This document shows, piece by piece, positions 18,841 through 62,414 of a stretch of 64,000 nucleotides of DNA. The DNA is taken from assembly GCA_018389105.1 (NCBI GenBank), contig JACATO010000306.1:1160001-1224000 (forward strand), in the 5' to 3' direction. Position numbers and translations under genes: made by a program. The stretch's first letter is position 1. Every line of letters starts with the position of its first letter. Under the pieces are notes generated by a model. The model was not told the DNA's origin. It saw only the letters and a list, made by a program, of their open reading frames with translations, and made no database searches. This DNA comes from Nautilus pompilius (Eukaryota; Mollusca; Cephalopoda; Nautilida; Nautilidae).

Positions 18841-19050
18841 ACATTGATTTTGCACAGAAGTTGCAAAGGAATCTCTTAAAATGTGCAATGAAAAGGATGC
18901 ATGACCATTTGACAATTCAAGATCTTTAAAGGATGTGCTTAGCCAGTGTGTGTGATCAAAGTCAATCTTTGCTGGAAATATCATGAGGTCTACCTTTTTA
19001 ATTTTTTGACATCTTTATGGTACCTGCTAAACAAACTTTTTTTTTTTTGG

Positions 19051-20042
19051 TGTTGTGCGGTGTTTAGGGGAGTGTATGTGAAGTTGCATATGTATGTGGG
19101 TGTAGCTGGATCGGTTCCACGACCGGCCGTCACAGCTGTTTACAAGTGAGGTCTTATTTAGGCCTATTTGTTTTGTTTAATATGTACCTCAACCTAGCGA
19201 GAGCAGCGGGCTACCCAACTCCTTTGTATTGCACGCAGGAGGGGTAGGTTTATCCTGGCTGGACTCTCTAGAACAGAGTTTTCTCTCTGTATGTCCTTGT
19301 TCTGAAGGGGAAGTTTGGGCCACTGTTTATTTTTCAAGTTTCCAAAGTGGAAGGATAGAGAGAGTTCTATTTTTATTTTGCAGGACGATGGATGGAGACA
19401 TGTTCTCCCTCCATTTGATCTTTTATTTAGTTCTCCCTCGTGGGGGAATCAGAGATTCCCGATGACGTGGAAGAGAACAGAAAGTCTTTATGACTTAAGT
19501 TCCTTCTTTTTATCCATCGTGGGGGGACCGGAGGTTCCCTGGCTGGTGATCATGCCGAGAAGTAGCACATCTGCTGTGGTGTTGGTCATCATAGCATCTG
19601 TCGCCCCATTCCACACCACAGTAGTTGGGTCTGTGTTCTTCTTTTATTTGGACTTTGTGATGTGTTTTATTAAACGAAGAAAGACTCATGGTTAGTCCAT
19701 GTGAGCATTATAGGGGTGGATTGCTTTATAAATAAATAGAGGCTTACACTGAAGAAAGGGGAGGGGGTGGGATTTTAGTTTGATAATTCTTTCAGTAAGT
19801 TTTAAAAGTTAAGTTATAAAGTGGTCAAAGATCACTTAAGAGATGAAATTAATTATAATTAAAAGTAATCCTTTAAGGATTTATTACATAATTGATATAC
19901 AGTGCATAAGAAAGAGGAGTAAGAAGGAGAAATAGAGAAAGAAAGAGGAAGAGAGGAGAAAGAAATCTTCTTTTCCAGCAACCTACATTAATTTAAAAAG
20001 CAAAGACATTTAAATTAGACATAGGGGTGGAGAAGGGGTGAC
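19051..20042 (-). other. Probable LINE 3' untranslated region
   Basis: This stretch is GC-richer than the flanks and lies between the LINE stop codon and the poly-T tract that represents its poly-A tail. Open frames at 19229-19695 on the plus strand show no recognisable domain. A purine-rich patch (GAAAGAGGAAGAGAGGAG) lies near 19940. Assigning it to the LINE is an inference from position and composition; a separate nested insertion is possible. Confidence 0.5.
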
Positions 20043-22840
20043 TCAGGGTGGTCGATCTAAGCTAAGAGTTGAAGTTGGGGAATTGTCAATGTGTATGTGT
20101 AATGTTTTGTTTGTTTTGATGTAACCTAATGCATTATTAATTAGCCAAGTGGAAGAGAAGATTAGTCTGTCATTTATACTAGATTTCATGACCGCATATT
20201 TTTGGTGTAACCAATTAGTTACATAGTTTTGGAATAGTAATTTCGTTGAGGTAGGCTGACCGCCTTCTAAAGCCTTTCCGCTACCCCAAGCGATCCGCTG
20301 GGCGGTAAAAACCAGAAAATTCAAAAGGCAGTCCTTTTTAGTTCTGTTATTGAAGCCAAAGATGCGTCAGAACGACGTAAGTTTGTTCTGGGGGCTTTTA
20401 ATTTTAAAAATCAAGTCTCGGACTAGACACCATAGTTCTATGTTCTGCGAACACGAGAACAAACAATGGATTGCCGTTTCGTCCACCTTGTGACAGGCGA
20501 GGCATTTGGGTGAGTTAATTAATTTCCATTTATGCTTGTTTTCCCTTGTGGGGAGAACATTCCTAATTAGTTTCCAGTGTATGTCAGATGTATATCTGTC
20601 CATGAGACGATTAATGGAACTAGCCCATATCCTGTCCCACAGAAGTGGTCCTGAATTGAGGTTATCTTCCTACCTCTTCCTGTAATTCGGATGGGTCATG
20701 ATGACAGGAAGAGGTAGATATCTCGCTGGGATAATTTGTCTAGTTCTATTTTAGTATCTCCTAAGCTTACGATGTTATCTGTGCCTATAGAGATGTTGCT
20801 GCTAATCCATTGCTGGAGTGTTGTTAGATGGTAATATGTTTCTTTGTGCTCTATATAATTTTAGTTAGTGAGAACATCGACCCCATCGAGGGTGTCAAAT
20901 GCTTTCGCTAAACGAGAGATGAAGAGATTTTGCCATCTTGGCCTATCGTTTACGTTTCTTATGATATCTATTATGTTTAATATTTGTTGAGCACCTACTT
21001 TGCTCTCTAGATTTATTAAATTTAATCCGCCTTGGCTCCGAGGGAGTCTAATTATTTGTTTGTTTGCCAGGTGTTTGCGCCCTTGCCACAGAAACCGAGT
21101 TAGCTCGACGTCTATGGCGTTGTGCACCCAGCCTGGCATCCCTATAATTTTAGATTTATAATAGATTTTGGGGGCGAGATAGGTGTTGACTAGTTCAGTT
21201 TTAGTAAAGAAAGAAAGGTTTAGCGAGGACCATGTGGTTAGTAAAGCGTTGACTTTATTAATCACAGGTTGCCAGTTGTCATGCAGCGTGTTAGTGTTGT
21301 ATTTTGTTGGGAAGTAGATTCCCAACAACTTAATTTTGTTTTCCACCCAGTTGATGTTGTATTGGCGCAGGGGTTTATTACTGCCCCCTAGCTATGCTGC
21401 GGTGGTCTTTCTTTTGTTTATTTTTGCCCCAGAGGCCTTTTCATAGACCTCTAGGACTTTAAATGCTGCGTCCAAGCTGGCCGCATCCTTTAACAGGAGG
21501 GTGGTGTCATCAGCGTATTGCTGAATTTTGACACCGTTTATCCCCCTGATTGTTGAGTTTTTCCGGATCATGGCAGCCAGGGGTTCTGCAGTCAGAACAT
21601 AAAGCATGGCGTTAAGGGGACACCCCTGCCTGATGCCTCTTGTTGGGTGGATAGACGAAGAGAGGAAGCCATTCTGGTAGATGTTGGTTATGAGGTGGGA
21701 TTGGAAAAGCCTAACAAAGTTAATGAAATACTCTCCGAAGCCAAGGGTTTTAAGTGTTTCTAAGAGAAAATTCCAGTTAACCCTATCAAAAGCTTTTTTC
21801 TGGTCTACGGCTAGCATAATTCCTATGGAATTTTCCGTGTCTAGCCTACTTGTAATTTCTCTGAACAGTTGAAGCGTATTTGTGATACTCCTTCCTGGAA
21901 CTGAACAGGTCTGGTCTGCACTTGTAACTTTATGCATAACTTTGGCTAGCCTAGTTGCTAGAGCCTTAGCTATGATTTTATAATCACTGTTTAAGAGACT
22001 GATGGGTCTCCAGTTGTCAAAGTACTCCGCGTGGCCCCCCCCTTTGGTAGCAGGACGACAGTGGCCGTACGTTGGCTTTCCAAGAGTACCCCCCCTACGA
22101 TATGCGCTATTCGCAATCATTGTCAGGTCTCCTGCTAGAAGATATTAAAATTTCTTATAGAATTCTGGCGTAAGGCCATCATTTCCTGGTGATTTTTCTT
22201 TATTTGAAGCTCTAATAGCTTGTTTTATTTCTTGAATAGTTAGGGGACCTTCACAGAGCTCGGCATCTAGGGGATCTAGTTTATCATCTAGACACGCTAA
22301 GATTTCGTCCTGAGCAATGGGACAGGTGTCTTCGCTATTGTATAGTTCACTATAATACCGACTCTCTTCCTGAATAATATCTTCTATGTCAGTTAAGACA
22401 CGGCCTTCCTTAGTTTTTAGTCTATTGATGGTTTTCCTTTCTGCCTTAGACTTCTCTAAACCACAGAAGGACATTCTATTCCCTTTGCCATTCATGGCCA
22501 GTACTCAGGCCCTAATTCTAGCACCCTCTGTTTTGTTAAGTTGCAGTTTTTTTCTATTTGTGTTTGGATGGCTTTAATTTTGTTTGTTCTATCTATACCT
22601 GAAGCGGCCTTGTTTAATTCTAAATTTAATTCTATTTTCAGCTTATTTTCTAAGTATTCTCTGTAAGCATTTCTTGCCTGACAATATTTTATGCTAATGT
22701 CCCTAAGTTTAACCTTACCTAGGTCTCACCACTCCAGGAGGTCCTCAAACTCATCCCGGCGAAGTGACCATTGTTCCCAGAAACTCTGTACGCTCTCAAC
22801 ATATTCCAACTCAGTCAGAATAGTATTATACAAACTTAAC
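20043..22840 (-). pseudogene. LINE reverse transcriptase ORF, disrupted
   Basis: Reading from high to low coordinates: a linker region (FWEQWSLRRDEFEDLLEW, then a stop, then DLGKVKLRDISIKYC), then EKSPGNDGLTPEFYKKF, then the RT palm with NWRPISLLNSDYKIIAKALA, DQKKAFDRVNW, RGIRQGCPLN and the catalytic QYADDTTLL, then a thumb region, and near 20400-20600 a zinc-binding RT tail with CLACHKVDETAIHCLFSC. The order and motifs fit the L1/Tx1 group. Lesions: in-frame stops at 22726-22728, 22505-22507, 22145-22147, 21392-21394, 20861-20863 and 20367-20369; frameshifts near 22540, at C-runs 22089-22095 and 22035-22042, and near 20690. It cannot make a working enzyme. Confidence 0.9.
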
Positions 22841-43245: not shown

Positions 43246-43715
43246 CACTGGTCAACACAATATTTTTGGCAGGAAAAGTGAGACTGGTTTCTGGGGTTTT
43301 CAAGGGCGCTGAATCCGAATCTGACATTTGTTTTTTCAAGTTGGCTCTAGTTTTGGAGATATCACAGGGGGGTCGTTCGTCTGAAATCACCCATTCGCGA
43401 CCATAACTAAACGTACAAAAAACGGCTAAATAGTGCAAAAATGTCAGATATTGATTTTTATGATAATCCAAAACCACAAAGACAGTGTAAAATCTCAATC
43501 TAACAAGTTAAGTTAGATATAACATCATTTCATTTATTAATAAATGAACACTTTTCATATATTTCGAGAATATACAAAAAATTTGCTAAAAATTTGCTGA
43601 ATTTTAATTCTCCAAGGGAAAAAAACATTTACATAATCAGTTATATATCATAAATTAATGCAAAGCATTATTATACACTAGATTCTTAGTTACAATGAAC
43701 ACACAAAACAATATT

Positions 43716-44267
43716 TTATTCACAAAAGTGAAATTGACGTTTATACGATTTTCGCTTGTGAGCAACTTTCGGGCAGTCTCTCAAAAGGTTCCAGCAGTAG
43801 TCTGCCATCATGTGCTCATCCCATTTGCCTTGATACCTCTCTTCCATTGTTTTGATGTCTTGATGGAATCTCTCTCCTTGCTCCTCACTGTAATCACCAA
43901 GATTACCAGGAAATCTGTCGAGGTGGCTAAACAAGAAATGAACTTTGATGCTCACATTTGCCCCTAGTTTTTCGTATGCAGTAAGCATCTTACGGACCAA
44001 TTGCTTGTAATTGTCAGCTTTGTGATTTCCCAAAAAGTTTGTCACTACATCTGTGAAGGACACCCAAGCATTTAACTCAACCATGTTCATATGATTAGTG
44101 AAGTCAGAATCCCTCATGAGCGTTCGAATCTGAGGTCCATCGAAGATGCCACCTTTAGCTTTTTCGATGGAAAGACCTGGAAATTGCCTGCATATGTACT
44201 TGAAGCAATCCCCATCTTTGTTCAACGCCTTAACAAACTGCTTCATGAGCCCTAGTTTTATGTGCAA
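43716..44267 (-). pseudogene. Transposase-like protein, C-terminal third (A)
   Basis: An uninterrupted 183-codon frame reads LHIKLGLMKQFVKALNKDGD at its start (the first codon is TTG, so this is not a true start), then DGPQIRTLMRD, NFLGNHKADNY, VHFLFSHLDRFPGNLGD, EEQGERFHQDI, MEERYQGKWDEHMMADYCW and a basic tail KRKSYKRQFHF. The same blocks in the same order occur in transposon B. The glutamate in GERFHQD is a candidate last catalytic residue. I know the family only as unclassified proteins common in arthropod and other invertebrate genomes. It lacks its N-terminus, so it is presumably non-functional alone. Confidence 0.8.
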
Positions 44268-44306
44268 ACTGTTTTAAAAACACTACATACATAATAATTA
44301 TTATGT

Positions 44307-44374
44307 ATTTTCTGATATTATTGAATCATTATAATGATTATAATCATTATAATGATTCAATAATATCAGAAAAT
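44307..44374. repeat. Perfect 68-bp palindrome
   Basis: Two 34-base arms meet with no spacer between 44340 and 44341 and are exact reverse complements. Each arm contains ATTATAATGATT, and the centre holds two copies of AATCATTATAATGATT, itself a palindrome. It lies just upstream of where the coding match between transposons A and B ends (about 44265), that is, near the internal deletion junction of A. Confidence 0.95.
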
Positions 44375-44576
44375 TATTATTTACTGCTTCTATATTGAAG
44401 TATTTCAGGGAGAATTTTAGCAGTTTAGGCTTATTTGAGGCTATCAATATCTTCTAAACTAGAGCCAATCAGACAAAACCAATGTTATATTCGTAATCAG
44501 CGACCTTCAAAACCCCAGAAAACACTCCTAGATGGTCTGCCAAAGAAAAAAAATAAAAATTTGTTGACCAGTGTAA

Positions 44577-45345
44577 TCAATGGCAGAAGGTGAAGAAAAT
44601 GCCTGCTGCACTGGGTGAGGGGATTGTGGCTACAAATGTAGTAACAGAAAGAGAAGAAAGGTGGTCAGACAGTATGGGAATGTCCAACCATCAAAAAAAT
44701 TGACCAACTGACGGAGACATTCAATTCAGGGCAATCCATACCTGTCTCCTGCTGTACCTTGAAAAAACTTTGCAGAAAATGGACATTTATGGTGAGAGAC
44801 CATTGTGTAAACTACTGATTGCAGCTACTGACATGAAAAGATACCCCGTGGTGTAGGGAGCATAGGAATTTGACAAAAGTAGAACTAGCAAAAATTTAAT
44901 GTTGTCTGATGAGTTATGCTTTGCCCTTTCCCTTTTTAGTAAAGATAGTAGAAAACATTTGGAGAAAGCCACAGGGATCACTAGACCCTCCTTTTGTGGT
45001 TGCAACTGTGCAGGTCTCTGGTGGTTGAGTCGTGGTTTGTGGTATGCCTTTCCAGCATACCTTGGTGCTTCTTGCTTGGTCCCAGTAACATTTACGATCA
45101 AATGCATGTAATGATACTTCATGTGTATCTCGATGAGGATGGCTACATCAAAGACAGGAATGGTTTTTATCCAACATGCTCACATCGTGTGTTCCTTGTT
45201 CAAAGAACATGATGGAGAGTTTGGGGATCTTTCATGGCCAGTACAATCTCCAGATCTTAAGCCAATTTAGCATCTGGGATGAACTTAAAAGATGTATTCA
45301 CCATCATGTTCTTCTGCGTATCTTTCCCTGTACATTCATACATTA
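44577..45345 (+). pseudogene. Tc1-like fossil, main part
   Basis: Plus-strand Tc1-like transposase remains in broken frames: YLEKTLQKMDIYGERPLCK near 44750, CREHRNLTKVELAK near 44860, LSDELCFALSLFSKD near 44902 (the WSDES.FTLF block) and SPDLKPI near 45252-45275 (the SPDLNPIE.LW.LK block, where a stop replaces the glutamate and a one-base loss follows in the HLWDELK part). It stops at 45345, where transposon B interrupts it, and resumes at 47704. Confidence 0.85.
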
Positions 45346-47703
45346 CACTGGTCAACAACATTTTTGGTGCATTGATACTGACAATTGATATTACCTAATT
45401 TGAGAGTGCTGAATTCAAATACGAAGTTAGTTTTACTCTGATAGCTCCAAGTTTTTTGCAATTAAGCTTTTTTTTATATTTTCCGAAATTTGAATGTTTA
45501 TCGTATGATGATGCAGTCCATCTGAAAATTTTTTGGTTATACCATCTTCATAATAGGTGAAAAACAAATATCTTTACATTGAGGTTCTAGATCTATTCAT
45601 AAATACGAGTTAGTACACCACAATAAGAATTAGGCTATAAAAATAATATTTAATATTCCGATAAATGTTACCATTTGCCAATACAGAAACGTAACTCCAT
45701 TATAATAAGTATGTGTACTGTTTTTCAGTGGAAAACATACATTATATACAAGTAATAGGTAGCTCGGTCAGAAACGGAATAGTATTGAAGGCAAAACAAA
45801 AATAGATCTTATTCAGGCAAGAATTTGCGCTTGTAACTCTTGCGTTTGTGGACTTTCCCAGGGCAATCTCGCTTAATGCTCCAGTAGTAGTCTGCCATCA
45901 TATTTTTGTCCCATCTGCCTTGGTACCACTCTTCCATGGTTCTGATGTCTTAATGGAAGCGCTCTCCATGCTCATCACTAACAGCCCCGAGATTCTCAGG
46001 AAATTGATCAAGGTGACTATGCAGCAAATGGAGTTTGACACTCATTTTACTCCCAAGATCACGAAAAACTAACAACATGTTAGTTACAAGAATTTCATAG
46101 TCATCTGCTTTTCTGTTACCAAGGAAATTTTGTATAACTGCCACGAATGACAGCCATGCTGCCCTTTCCTTGTCATTCATCTTTCCGATAAATTCCTCAT
46201 CATGCACAAGGGCACGAATCTGAGGTCCATCTAACACACCTGCTTTAATCTTCTCGAAGGACAAAGCAGAGAATGCAGAGATTATATGTTGAAAACATTC
46301 ACCATCAGTATTCAATGCTTTCATGAACTGCTTCATCAAGCCCAGCTTGATATGGAGTGGTGGGAAAACAATCTTATCTTGACTGATGATTGGATCATTA
46401 ACAATATTTGGCATGCCTGCTTCCAGAGTCTCAAGGATGGGCCACTCCTTCTGGATCCAGTGTTTTTCTCCAGCTAGGCTGTCCCACATTTAGAGATAGC
46501 AAGGATAGTTTGTGAAACCTTTCTGTTGACTGAGGAGGAAAGTGACCATTTTCAAGTCTACACAAATGATCCAGTTGTGTTCATGATATTTTAGTAGGTC
46601 AATAACCGTTTTTATGTCATTATATTCTTCTCGTAAATGCACTGAGTGACCAACTGGGACAGCTCCATAAACATTGCCATTGTGCAGGAGAGCACATGTT
46701 AGGCTGCGCTTAGAGCTATCTAGAAATAGTCGCCACTCAGTTGGATTGTAAGATTGAATGTCTAATACCTGGAGAAGACCTGGAATATTGTGGCAGAAAA
46801 CAAAATGTTTTTCTTCTGAAAAATAAGACACAAAAATCTGGTCCCATTTTTGAAAATAGGAAACTTTCGCAGTTTGGTCAAGTAGATGTTTTTCTTGCAG
46901 CCTGGATGCTAACACTTCAGCTGCATTCTTGGAGCCCCAGATCATGCACTAAATCATTCAGTTCTGGTTGGTTAAACTGTTGAGCTTTGAATTCTGAACT
47001 TATTTCTTGAACCTCGTTATCATTGTTGTGATGTTGTTCGCTTCTTTCATCTTCGGATGAGGTTAACCCACGAAATACTGAAATCGGGAGTGTATCAGAG
47101 TGCATAATAGGTCTAATTGCTGATGGAATATTAGGATAAGAGATTTTATGCCTGTTTTTCATGCCAATACCCTTTGTCTTGACCAGACAAAAATAACAGT
47201 CATTTGTGTGATCCCTGGGCTCTCGCCACCCCATAGGAACTCAAAAAGACAGACTCTTCCGTTTTCCTTTTGTCCAGTCATGAAGCCTTTCCTCGCAGAT
47301 ATGACACACAACATGAGGGGCCCATTTTTTGTCTTGGTCGCCAAGGGGAATTCCAAAGTATGCTTTATAGGCTTGTCTCACAAACAATGTTATATTACGC
47401 CTTTGACAAATAAGTGTGAAGGAACCACAGATGTAGCAGAAGCCATCAGGATTATTCACACATCGACGTTTGCTTGAAGAATCCATGATTAGAAGCAATG
47501 ATTAGATCTGAAACATAAACACAATTGTCAATTCTAAGTATGATATATCTCGACAGGTCAAAAATTATATCTTAAAATTGCAAGAAAACGAGAGCATATA
47601 GAGCAAAACTAATTTCAAATTTGAAATCAGCACCAAAAATTAAGCTAGAAACTGAAAAAAATCTCATGCACCAGAAAAAAAGAAAAAAAATTGTTGCCCA
47701 GTG
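45346..47703 (-). mobile_element. Transposon B: long-TIR element with transposase ORF
   Basis: The ends read CACTGGTCAACA (left) and CACTGGGCAACA (right, reverse strand). Inverted repeats run about 130 bp, sharing GTGCTGA, TTCAAAT, TTAGTTTT, CTC and TTGCAATT blocks (left about 45346-45475, right about 47575-47703). TTA flanks both sides (45343-45345, 47704-47706), a 3-bp duplication. One minus-strand gene of about 560 codons fills the element. It is inserted in the 3' part of a Tc1-like fossil. Its TIRs are related to those of transposon A, with the same terminus and GCTGAAT.C.AAT block, but diverged, so A and B are sister families rather than recent copies. Confidence 0.9.
45809..47486 (-). 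pseudogene. Transposase-like protein of transposon B, disrupted
   Basis: The best start is the ATG at 47486 (MDSSSKRRCVNNPDGFCYIC). The N-terminal part has three Cys pairs, CYIC, CHIC and CYFC, likely a zinc-binding DNA-recognition region. The middle has EWRLFLDSSKRSLTCALLHN, HEHNWIICVDLKMVTFLLSQ and YPCYL.MWDS. The C-terminal part has PPLHIKLGLMKQFMKALN, DGPQIRALV, NFLGNRKADD, HLLHSHLDQFPENLG and DEHGERFH, ending in a basic KRKSYKRKF tail. Candidate DDE residues are D in FLDSSK, D in CVDLK and E in GERFH (inference). Lesions: stops at 47241-47243, 46490-46492 and 45950-45952, and a frameshift near 46920-46945. Family not recognised by name. Confidence 0.8.
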
Positions 47704-47790
47704 TTATTAATAACTGAATGGGAGAATATTTTTCAGGATATTTTCCAGCACCTTGTAGATTCTTTGCCATGTTGTCTTCTGGTTATTTGT
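47704..47790 (+). pseudogene. Tc1-like fossil, 3' end beyond transposon B
   Basis: After the target duplication, 47718-47770 encodes WENIFQDIFQHLVDSLP, the usual C-terminal Tc1 block (W..I......LV.SMP.R). It continues the fossil that stops at 45345, showing that transposon B interrupts one Tc1-like copy. Confidence 0.8.
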
Positions 47791-60159: not shown

Positions 60160-61590
60160 TTTTAGTCTCTCTCATCAATGTTTACCTATTCTTATGATTT
60201 TGTGTTATCTTTAAACTTATCAAAATGGCCATATTTGTTTCTATAGTTGAATACATAATAATTTACAATGGTTTAATTGTTTAGGATCATGCATGAAAGA
60301 TGTCAGTGGACACTGGTAAAAAAAAAGTGGCCTAATTACTTTCTATAATTTTGGTGTCTTTTATTTTTTCCTTAAGCTGTAAATATTAATAATCATTATT
60401 TACATCTTTCTGATTCTTCTTCATGTCAAACGAAGAAATATAACCATACTCATAGTCAGTGCCTACTATTCTTAAAAATTTACATCAGAAAATACAGCAT
60501 CAGCTTTAACAAATCATGTCTTCTGGTAACTGGGCAATGAAAGTCTATTACAAAGCAGTTTTTAGCAGCTTCTAGATCATACTTTGTTAAGCCACCAACT
60601 TTCTTGAATTAAACACACAGTACTTATTCTTTTCATTATTTTAATAAATTATTTGGAAATTTCTTCTACTTGCTTACCATTATTATATGTTTAGTCTTTA
60701 CAAAACAGAATTCTTACTGTTTTTGATTAATAAATTTATTTTCTTTTTCTTATTTTATTTCTGATGAAGTTTGAAAGTTTGGAAATTTGTACTATTCCTA
60801 TCACTACTATTATAACACAATTTTCCTACCATGTGGTTAACTGTTGAAAATTTAAATTAAATGCAAGTAAATGTCATTAAATCACCAAATTTGCACAGAA
60901 TTTAACATTTACTTTTTTGTATTGCATGATTGAAAATGTGGCCCCTTTTTAATGTTTACATTCAGGTGACAGATGAGTCTTTTGATGAATTTGGACAATT
61001 AATTAAGCTTTTGTGTAATTTGAAGAACACTTTCATCTCTGTATATAATATGCTGTCAAAAAATGTTTATTATTAAGTAACTTCTAGCAGATAGTTTAAT
61101 GGAAAGTTTGAGGAAAGATGCTAAATAATGGAATATCCATGGAAAGCGGCCACAAGTATTTTACCTTCATGCAATTCTTAGATCTCATTTTTTATGAATT
61201 TACATGCAGAACCTATTTTTATTGTAATTAATAAATTAGTTATTTTTGAAGTATTTGTATACATCAGAGGCTTGAAAATAAATATGAAAATGCACTCTTA
61301 GTTTATTATACTTGTGTTTGGAGACTGGACAGCTTATCTCTCATTTGATAATATTGTTTCTATCGGGATTTAACTCGGTTTGGTGACCTCCCACAACATG
61401 GTTTCTTCTTTTAGTTCTTTATTAAAACAATTAATGATATTGCTGAAGTTTCTTAGTAGTATTTTATTTATGTAATCTGTTAAATAGAAAATATACTCAG
61501 CTGAATTTGCTGGATTGTTTACTTCTGAAGATCCCATTAGTATTAGAATTGAGAAAAATTCATAGGGTATTAGTCTATGATTAATTAGCT
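60160..61590. other. AT-rich DNA, no gene seen
   Basis: No supported feature. A frame after an acceptor-like CATTCAG at 60967 (VTDESFDEFGQLIKLL) runs to a stop without a donor. Confidence 0.4.
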
Positions 61591-61592
61591 TG

Positions 61593-62414
61593 TTCTATAT
61601 CAGTGGATCCCAACCTTTTTGGACTCGTGGACCTTTTTCTAATACTCAAAAGACTTGCAACCTCCTGCTACACTTCCATAATTGGAAAAAAATCAAAGAA
61701 TAAATTTAGCAAAAAAATCACATAAATAAGAGTTTTAGTAAATTTCATCATACATTTATTGAAAATTATTTTAGTGATTTTTTGGGGAACAACATCTGCA
61801 CATATAGTAAATTCATAACAGCTAAACAGAAATCTACTGGGATCAGTGAATTCTACCTCTGATCAGAACAGCTGTGTGGTGCGTTGTGTTGGTGCCCAAG
61901 TTTGCCTAAAATCAAGCTGGCTAGTGTTCGTCCAGCCAATGTCACAGTCCAGTCTTTGTAGTGTACTCTGCCCCAAGCATCATGGTCCGAGTCATTTAGC
62001 TACAGGCCCCAATGGTGTTAACCAATGGGAGTGTGGCTCAATTGCGTCAGTCCTACTGTGGTAACAGTTCAAGTTCTGGCCTTTGTTGCCAGCGTGTATT
62101 GTCCGTGTTTCTATAGGTTGGCAGAGCGACAGGAAGCCGCAGGTGGCCAGTGATGCAACCAGGAGTGTCTGCTGTAGGAGACAAGCCTTACACCTTCGGC
62201 GCTTGACCTTCCATCGATGATACTGGTCTATTGGACGCAGGGTAATTTTTGTATACTTTTTTCTGGAAAAAAGTGCATCTTATAAGCCGGCAAATACGGT
62301 ACATATAAACAAAACAAATACATACTCATGAACAGTTTCTTGACTCAGTCATATGACAAAAATTGAAACTTCCAGGGTCCCATGACCCCCTGGTTTGGAA
62401 CCACTGTTCTATAT
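61593..62414. mobile_element. Non-autonomous hAT element with 8-bp TSD
   Basis: The element spans 61601-62406. The left end CAGTGGATCCCAACC and the right end, reverse strand, CAGTGGTTCCAAACC are inverted copies, of the CAGTGGTTCCCAACC type common in hAT elements. TTCTATAT lies directly outside both ends (61593-61600 and 62407-62414), an exact 8-bp target duplication as hAT transposases make. The interior has no transposase; instead 61850-62230 is GC-richer than the flanks, followed by a short motif GCATCTTATAAGCCGGCAAA near 62275. The intact duplication points to a fairly recent insertion. Confidence 0.9.

Follow-up and report, generated by a model that had tools for sequence, protein, structure and literature searches.

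The window analysed in this study is a continuous stretch of 64,000 nucleotides (64 kb) of the Nautilus pompilius genome. Analysis of this window revealed two DNA transposon insertions separated by 0.8 kb, designated element A and element B; the features of both are listed in Table 1. Element B carries a transposase gene on the reverse strand and had been described in an earlier note on this DNA, whereas element A was absent from the text of that finding.

Table 1. Positions of the features of elements A and B in the window (TSD, target site duplication)
Feature	Position	Strand	Details
Element A, 1328 bp, derived by internal deletion from a 2516-bp family with intact transposase	43246..44573	-	100% identity to full-length 1-306 + 1495-2516
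TSD left of element A, TAA	43243..43245		
TSD right of element A, TAA	44574..44576		
Remnant of the A transposase after the deletion, residues 380-562 (C-terminal)	43716..44267	-	
Perfect 68-bp palindrome near the 5' end of A	44307..44374		Full-length (L021) positions 200-267
Element B, degenerate Chapaev3-type DNA transposon	45346..47703	gene on -	2358 bp; ends, TSD, protein homology
TSD left of element B, TTA	45343..45345		
TSD right of element B, TTA	47704..47706		
Terminal 12-mer CACTGGTCAACA, 3' end of B	45346..45357	+	
Terminal 12-mer CACTGGGCAACA, 5' end of B	47692..47703	-	
Short spacer (8 bp), 12-mer to GGTGCAT block, 3' end of B	45358..45365	+	
Long T-rich spacer (19 bp), 12-mer to GGTGCAT block, 5' end of B	47673..47691	-	
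Subterminal box, 3' end of B	45396..45463	+	78% inverted match to 47576-47642
Subterminal box, 5' end of B	47576..47642	-	
Transposase pseudogene of B	45809..47486	-	tblastn with intact A transposase, E 4e-180

The limits proposed for element B in the earlier note proved exact to the base, and the 3-bp TTA duplication claimed there is present on either flank. The ends, given previously as CACTGG(T/G)CAACA, occur as CACTGGTCAACA and CACTGGGCAACA, and each is followed inwards by a T-rich spacer and a subterminal region with the box. The inverted repeats of about 130 bp are real; they are imperfect, the inner boxes being 78% identical over 69 aligned columns and the 5' end having extra spacer. 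When up to two mismatches were allowed, the terminal 12-mer was found 13 times in the 64-kb window against 4.8 expected, a number reached by none of 100 shuffles; its only three exact matches each coincide with an end of element A or B, which have four ends in all. Paired ends with equal flanking 3-mers were sought across the window (at most one mismatch, spacing of 100-5000 bp), which gave A, B and one weak pair at 60311-62027, with flanks GGA and not TWA. Comparison of the gene in element B with the intact A transposase revealed about 50% identity over residues 2-189 and 56% over residues 188-558 (joint E 4e-180). A single gene of about 560 codons had been described here: the length is right, but the gene is broken by three in-frame stops and one frameshift relative to the intact A relative, which makes it a pseudogene. 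We regard element B as a Chapaev3-type copy that is old and dead.

Family A was collected from the host genome (727.6 Mb, 2558 contigs) with the 183-aa fragment of element A as query. Of 5889 first-look candidates 150 were scored; all 150 had the same top score, and a 572-residue open frame was present in two of them. Both ends, sought with at most one mismatch, were found in 39 of the 41 places examined (40 loci), the other two being without an end; the terminal 12-mer is exact at 39/39 of the 5' ends and 38/39 of the 3' ends. The 60-bp left end of A has 255 exact occurrences genome-wide (reversed control, 0), 124 of which are preceded by ATTA. Three of the 39 copies are 2516 bp long: two are identical to each other (L021 and L022) and contain a 562-aa ORF, and in the third (L034) the frame is broken. 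Internal deletions of several different kinds account for the remaining 36 copies; since the query needed the C-terminal part, deletions that removed this part lie outside the sample. The window copy, which is without full-length positions 307-1494, belongs to a deletion class of 1326-1329 bp represented by 17 sampled copies with a mean pairwise divergence of 0.00018, and 11 of the 17, itself counted, are letter for letter equal to it. Element A represents a second family, in which intact ORFs are present and working members may still exist; the window copy itself is young and non-autonomous.

The left breakpoints of the sampled A deletions fall at positions 184-321, several within or adjoining the 68-bp palindrome, as if repair had stalled at a hairpin. 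By eye, a pyrimidine tract ending in CAG lies just 5' of the ATG of L021 (element positions about 330-360) and could be the putative acceptor of a 5' UTR intron. At one place (G000:C299, L036) two 1383-bp A derivatives are neighbouring insertions of opposite orientation, and a separate TTA duplication flanks each of them.

A second search of the genome, with part of the B protein (150 of 5705 candidates scored), revealed among the matches listed blocks of identity at about 85-94% (B-like), about 69-73% and about 55-60%, with A at 55%; a 582-residue stop-free open frame was present in five of the 150. At least four families (A-D) in this genome thus have this protein, ends of the CAC(T/A)GG type and mostly TWA duplications, and between families the proteins are 55-73% identical in aligned columns. 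In family B both ends were found in six of nine distinct copies (L041-L048 and L054; L049-L053 are repeat fetches of places already counted, and were counted once), with a pairwise divergence of 2.9-5.2% (mean 4.2%, 15 pairs). The three family C loci examined (2274-2307 bp) all have both ends, CACAGGGGAACA and CACTGGGGAACA. One of them, L055, contains an intact 574-aa ORF; L056 differs from it by 0.6% and L059 by 0.4%. The frame of L056 is open over its full length but has histidine at the second candidate aspartate, a candidate catalytic position, so its open frame is no proof of activity. Family D has both ends in six of the eight loci examined, and the D copies read hold only a partial ORF. 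Among all loci read, no unrelated transposase was noticed inside the same kind of ends. Families A and C look young and B and D older, and two such families look recently mobile in this genome, having intact copies and many internal-deletion derivatives.

Target site duplications were counted in copies with both ends, leaving out three B copies with only the right end and two D copies with a single end. In family A the flanking 3-mers are equal in 37/39 copies (TTA 26, TAA 10, CTA 1), giving a TTA or TAA duplication in 36/39, and are unequal in two. The duplication is preceded by A in 33/37 and followed by T in 33/37, and both insertions in the window fit this A[TWA]T context. Equal flanks were found in 3/6 copies of family B, 3/3 of family C and 4/6 of family D (TTA on both sides in C and D), older copies often being without matching flanks. 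Empty sites are present in L017, where five uninterrupted units of a 68-bp tandem repeat have one TTA and the filled unit has two. Weak spanning matches were also seen between L023 and L034 (75%) and between L005 and L040 (71%). The target consensus of family A (L001-L040) is longer than ATWAT and reads tGA[TWA]TCa, with weak palindromic symmetry, its outer positions being T in 20, G in 19, C in 18 and A in 17 of 37.

The A protein has C(2)C at residues 332-335, LH at 380-381 and H(4)H at 489-494, a motif set also covered by an alignment of parts of the A, B, C and D proteins. A second LH occurs at residue 270, which makes LH alone a weak marker. The candidate catalytic residues D259, D313 and E508 or E511 are located in conserved blocks and are proposed from the motif layout only. 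Three CxxC pairs (16, 60 and 95) in the first 100 residues of the A protein are compatible with the N-terminal 'Chapa' zinc finger described for Chapaev3 (PMC4411706).

Searches of Pfam, NCBIfam and PDB sequences with the protein gave no significant match, Rfam gave 0 matches, scans of viral-contig and genome-contig collections gave no confirmed relative, and protein strings used as a literature text query found no match. A sub-threshold zf-AD match (E 0.026-0.14) lies over the N-terminal CxxC pairs and is perhaps not due to chance; the other sub-threshold matches, namely Glyco_hydro_18 (0.019), Styelin (0.073), SbmA_BacA (0.082), SLATT_5 (0.17), FYVE_CARP1-2 (0.39) and two PDB chains of adenylyl-cyclase-associated protein (0.44 and 0.57), were taken as chance. 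An AlphaFold model built from the B core and the A fragment (two rows) has a mean pLDDT of 46.8, and Foldseek of this model against the PDB returned 0 matches at E <= 0.001, the PDB matches of the model being meaningless. The order of strands and helices around the two candidate aspartates would be in keeping with an RNase H fold, but at pLDDT 46.8 this does not count as evidence.

Elements A and B are very probably insertions of two different Chapaev3 families (CMC/CMCT clade), with the protein of about 560 residues as a DDE-type transposase encoded by one uninterrupted ORF. The CMCT clade consists of EnSpm, Mirage, Chapaev, Transib and RAG1, and Chapaev3 is placed within Chapaev (PMC12730594). 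Chapaev3 is described as inserting between A and T, with TWA duplications in every member that the authors of the description examined; C(2)C, LH and H(4)H are given as its transposase motifs, most members are single-exon, and CAC..GTG ends are reported for Chapaev at large (PMC4079192). The elements analysed here have CAC...GTG terminal inverted repeats, 3-bp TWA duplications, the A/T insertion context and the three motifs; their sizes (562 aa and 2516 bp in A, 574 aa and 2307 bp in C) compare with about 556 aa and about 2.3 kb, and they are single-exon in the sense of an uninterrupted ORF. Because motifs, size, ORF, ends, duplications and A/T-flanked targets match this description, the elements are filed as Chapaev3. 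The named families Merrow, Garfield and Conan have in common with A-D the CAC..GTG ends, TWA within A..T, size and motifs (PMC4079192). Two exons are reported for Garfield, which is 2289 bp long and encodes a transposase of 556 aa, and for Merrow (PMC4079192). Families A-D are not equated with any named family. Chapaev elements of the 4-bp group share the CMC motifs and CAC ends and differ from A-D, where the duplication is 3-bp TWA. Families A-D would accordingly match as new families within the known Chapaev3 group, a placement set by the published description of the group and not by its sequences.

The view of the earlier note that element B is a DNA transposon with terminal inverted repeats and the transposase as its single gene is supported, since the protein copies share such ends; copies of the protein lacking the repeats, which the note had named as counter-evidence, were looked for, with the outcome given above for each family. 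Its suggestion of the CMC group, possibly Chapaev3, gains support from the A[TWA]T target, motifs, length and uninterrupted ORF. The label 'unclassified' was too strong, because Chapaev3 is already a named group, though Pfam and NCBIfam have no significant match. The 'uncharacterised' protein inside these elements is hereby given a named transposase group, with genomic evidence.

Three other explanations were considered. A PIF/Harbinger or CACTA (EnSpm) element would also leave 3-bp duplications, those of Harbinger being TWA, and CACTA shares the CMC group and the CAC ends. However, the ends here are CACTG or CACAG and not CACTA, the motifs are as in Chapaev, and no Pfam transposase, including the PIF/Harbinger DDE nuclease domain and the CACTA transposase domain, matched at E up to 10, a search in which HMMER filters may drop very weak or distant matches; this explanation is highly improbable. 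Equally improbable is a composite element, with ends from another transposon and an ORF captured from the host. Its sole support is that the protein belongs to no curated Pfam or NCBIfam family, against which stand four families, 55-73% identical, each with the ORF or part of it between ends of the same type; a one-time recent capture would not yield this arrangement.

A separate undescribed lineage of the CMCT clade, outside Chapaev3 and with Chapaev3-like ends and motifs, deserves somewhat more weight and is still unlikely. The database searches and the inability of the earlier reader to place the protein are in keeping with it, and the C(2)C and H(3-4)H motifs are common to the whole clade (PMC12730594). 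Against this, TWA in A/T context, a length of about 560 aa, the uninterrupted ORF and the Chapaev motifs jointly fit Chapaev3, the assignment retained below.

Comparison of the two ends within these Chapaev3-type families revealed spacers of unequal length between the terminal 12-mer and the next conserved block, the longer 5' spacer being T-rich. In family A, 38/39 copies have a 5' spacer of 17 bp and a 3' spacer of 7 bp (16 and 7 in one); the corresponding lengths are 18-21 and 8 bp in family B (6/6) and 18 and 8 bp in family C (3/3). The six copies of family D have 5' spacers of 16, 17, 18, 18, 19 and 11 bp and a 3' spacer of 7 bp (at most three block mismatches). Measured from the first seven bases, the block lies 12-13 bp inwards at the 3' end. 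The corresponding 5' distance is 22 bp in family A, with one copy at 21, and 23 bp in family C; in families B and D it ranges over 23-26 and 21-24 bp, apart from a single D copy at 16. These absolute distances hinge on the chosen block start, and the difference of about 10 bp does not.

The offset was also measured without motifs, by ungapped sliding of the 5' against the 3' subterminal regions over shifts of -20 to +30. In family A, 38/39 copies matched best at a shift of 10 (9 in one); the best shifts were 10, 10, 10, 11, 12 and 13 in family B, and 10, 10 and 9 in family C. Family D gave 11, 11, 9, 14, 18 and -7, hence 9-11 bp in three of six copies. Among its outliers, inspected by eye, L057 (18) has lost part of its 3' subterminal sequence, L062 (14, closely followed by 12) is ambiguous, and in L058 (-7) no 5' region past the block can be aligned. 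Family D is therefore the weakest case for an offset of one turn, which is clear in A, B and C. The identities at the best shift (0.77, 0.57, 0.58 and 0.78 for one copy each of A-D) exceed those of all 500 single-base shuffles made of the 5' subterminal sequence in each case. The 5' and 3' ends are thus related to each other; how large the shift is was read off directly. Since the A copies are near-identical, the independent observations are four families and not 54 copies, and a single ancestral event could suffice for the offset in all four. Although the sequence of the spacer changed, the spacing stayed close to one turn of the helix, which suggests that the spacing is under constraint.

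This one-turn asymmetry is the interesting point of these elements. By analogy with the RAG system, we tentatively consider it possible that Chapaev3 ends follow a 12/23-like spacing rule, in which the transposase would pair one long-spacer 5' end with one short-spacer 3' end, the two differing by about one helical turn. Transib duplications are 5 bp long, and in place of such 5-bp GC-rich duplications the elements here have 3-bp TWA. A GC preference is documented for Transib duplications, and ProtoRAG has 5-bp GC-biased ones, which differ from those of A-D (PMC8289069). Transib, RAG1 and ProtoRAG have in common with A-D the CMCT clade, ends beginning with CAC and, for the RSS, ProtoRAG and some Transibs, unequal end spacing (PMC12730594, PMC8289069, PMC8355894). 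Outside V(D)J recombination, 12/23 asymmetry is stated to be known only in some Transibs, and a figure legend of the same paper also lists asymmetric ends for an oyster RAG-like element (PMC8355894); ProtoRAG spacing is 27/31 and most Transib families have symmetric ends (PMC8289069). The RAG system further has an RSS nonamer and a RAG2-like gene, whereas in elements A-D no second, RAG2-like gene was seen and no RSS nonamer was identified. The passages on Chapaev3 in PMC4079192 make no mention of a 5'/3' offset of about 10 bp. The titles and abstract openings listed, largely of literature outside subscription journals, contained no report of end asymmetry in Chapaev, which may nevertheless be known. 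If the reading is true, ends that differ by one turn either date far back in the CMCT clade, to which RAG1 belongs, or arose repeatedly. If the asymmetry is functional, these elements offer a one-gene system within the RAG1 clade for the origin of unequal ends, which bears on the origin of the 12/23 rule.

For transposition of these elements we infer the following course. At either end the transposase would bind the terminal CACTGG..AACA as well as the subterminal box, possibly by means of its cysteine-rich N-terminal domain, and would pair a long-spacer 5' end with a short-spacer 3' end. Cutting would take place at CAC, and insertion into A[TWA]T targets would generate the 3-bp TWA duplication.

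Two further features were observed in the window. A segment of 296 bp (19050-19345) matches a portion of the D copy L058 at 78% identity and probably represents another repeat nested in that copy. At 20861-22120 on the reverse strand, two ORFs resemble, by eye, pieces of the reverse transcriptase of a non-LTR retrotransposon.
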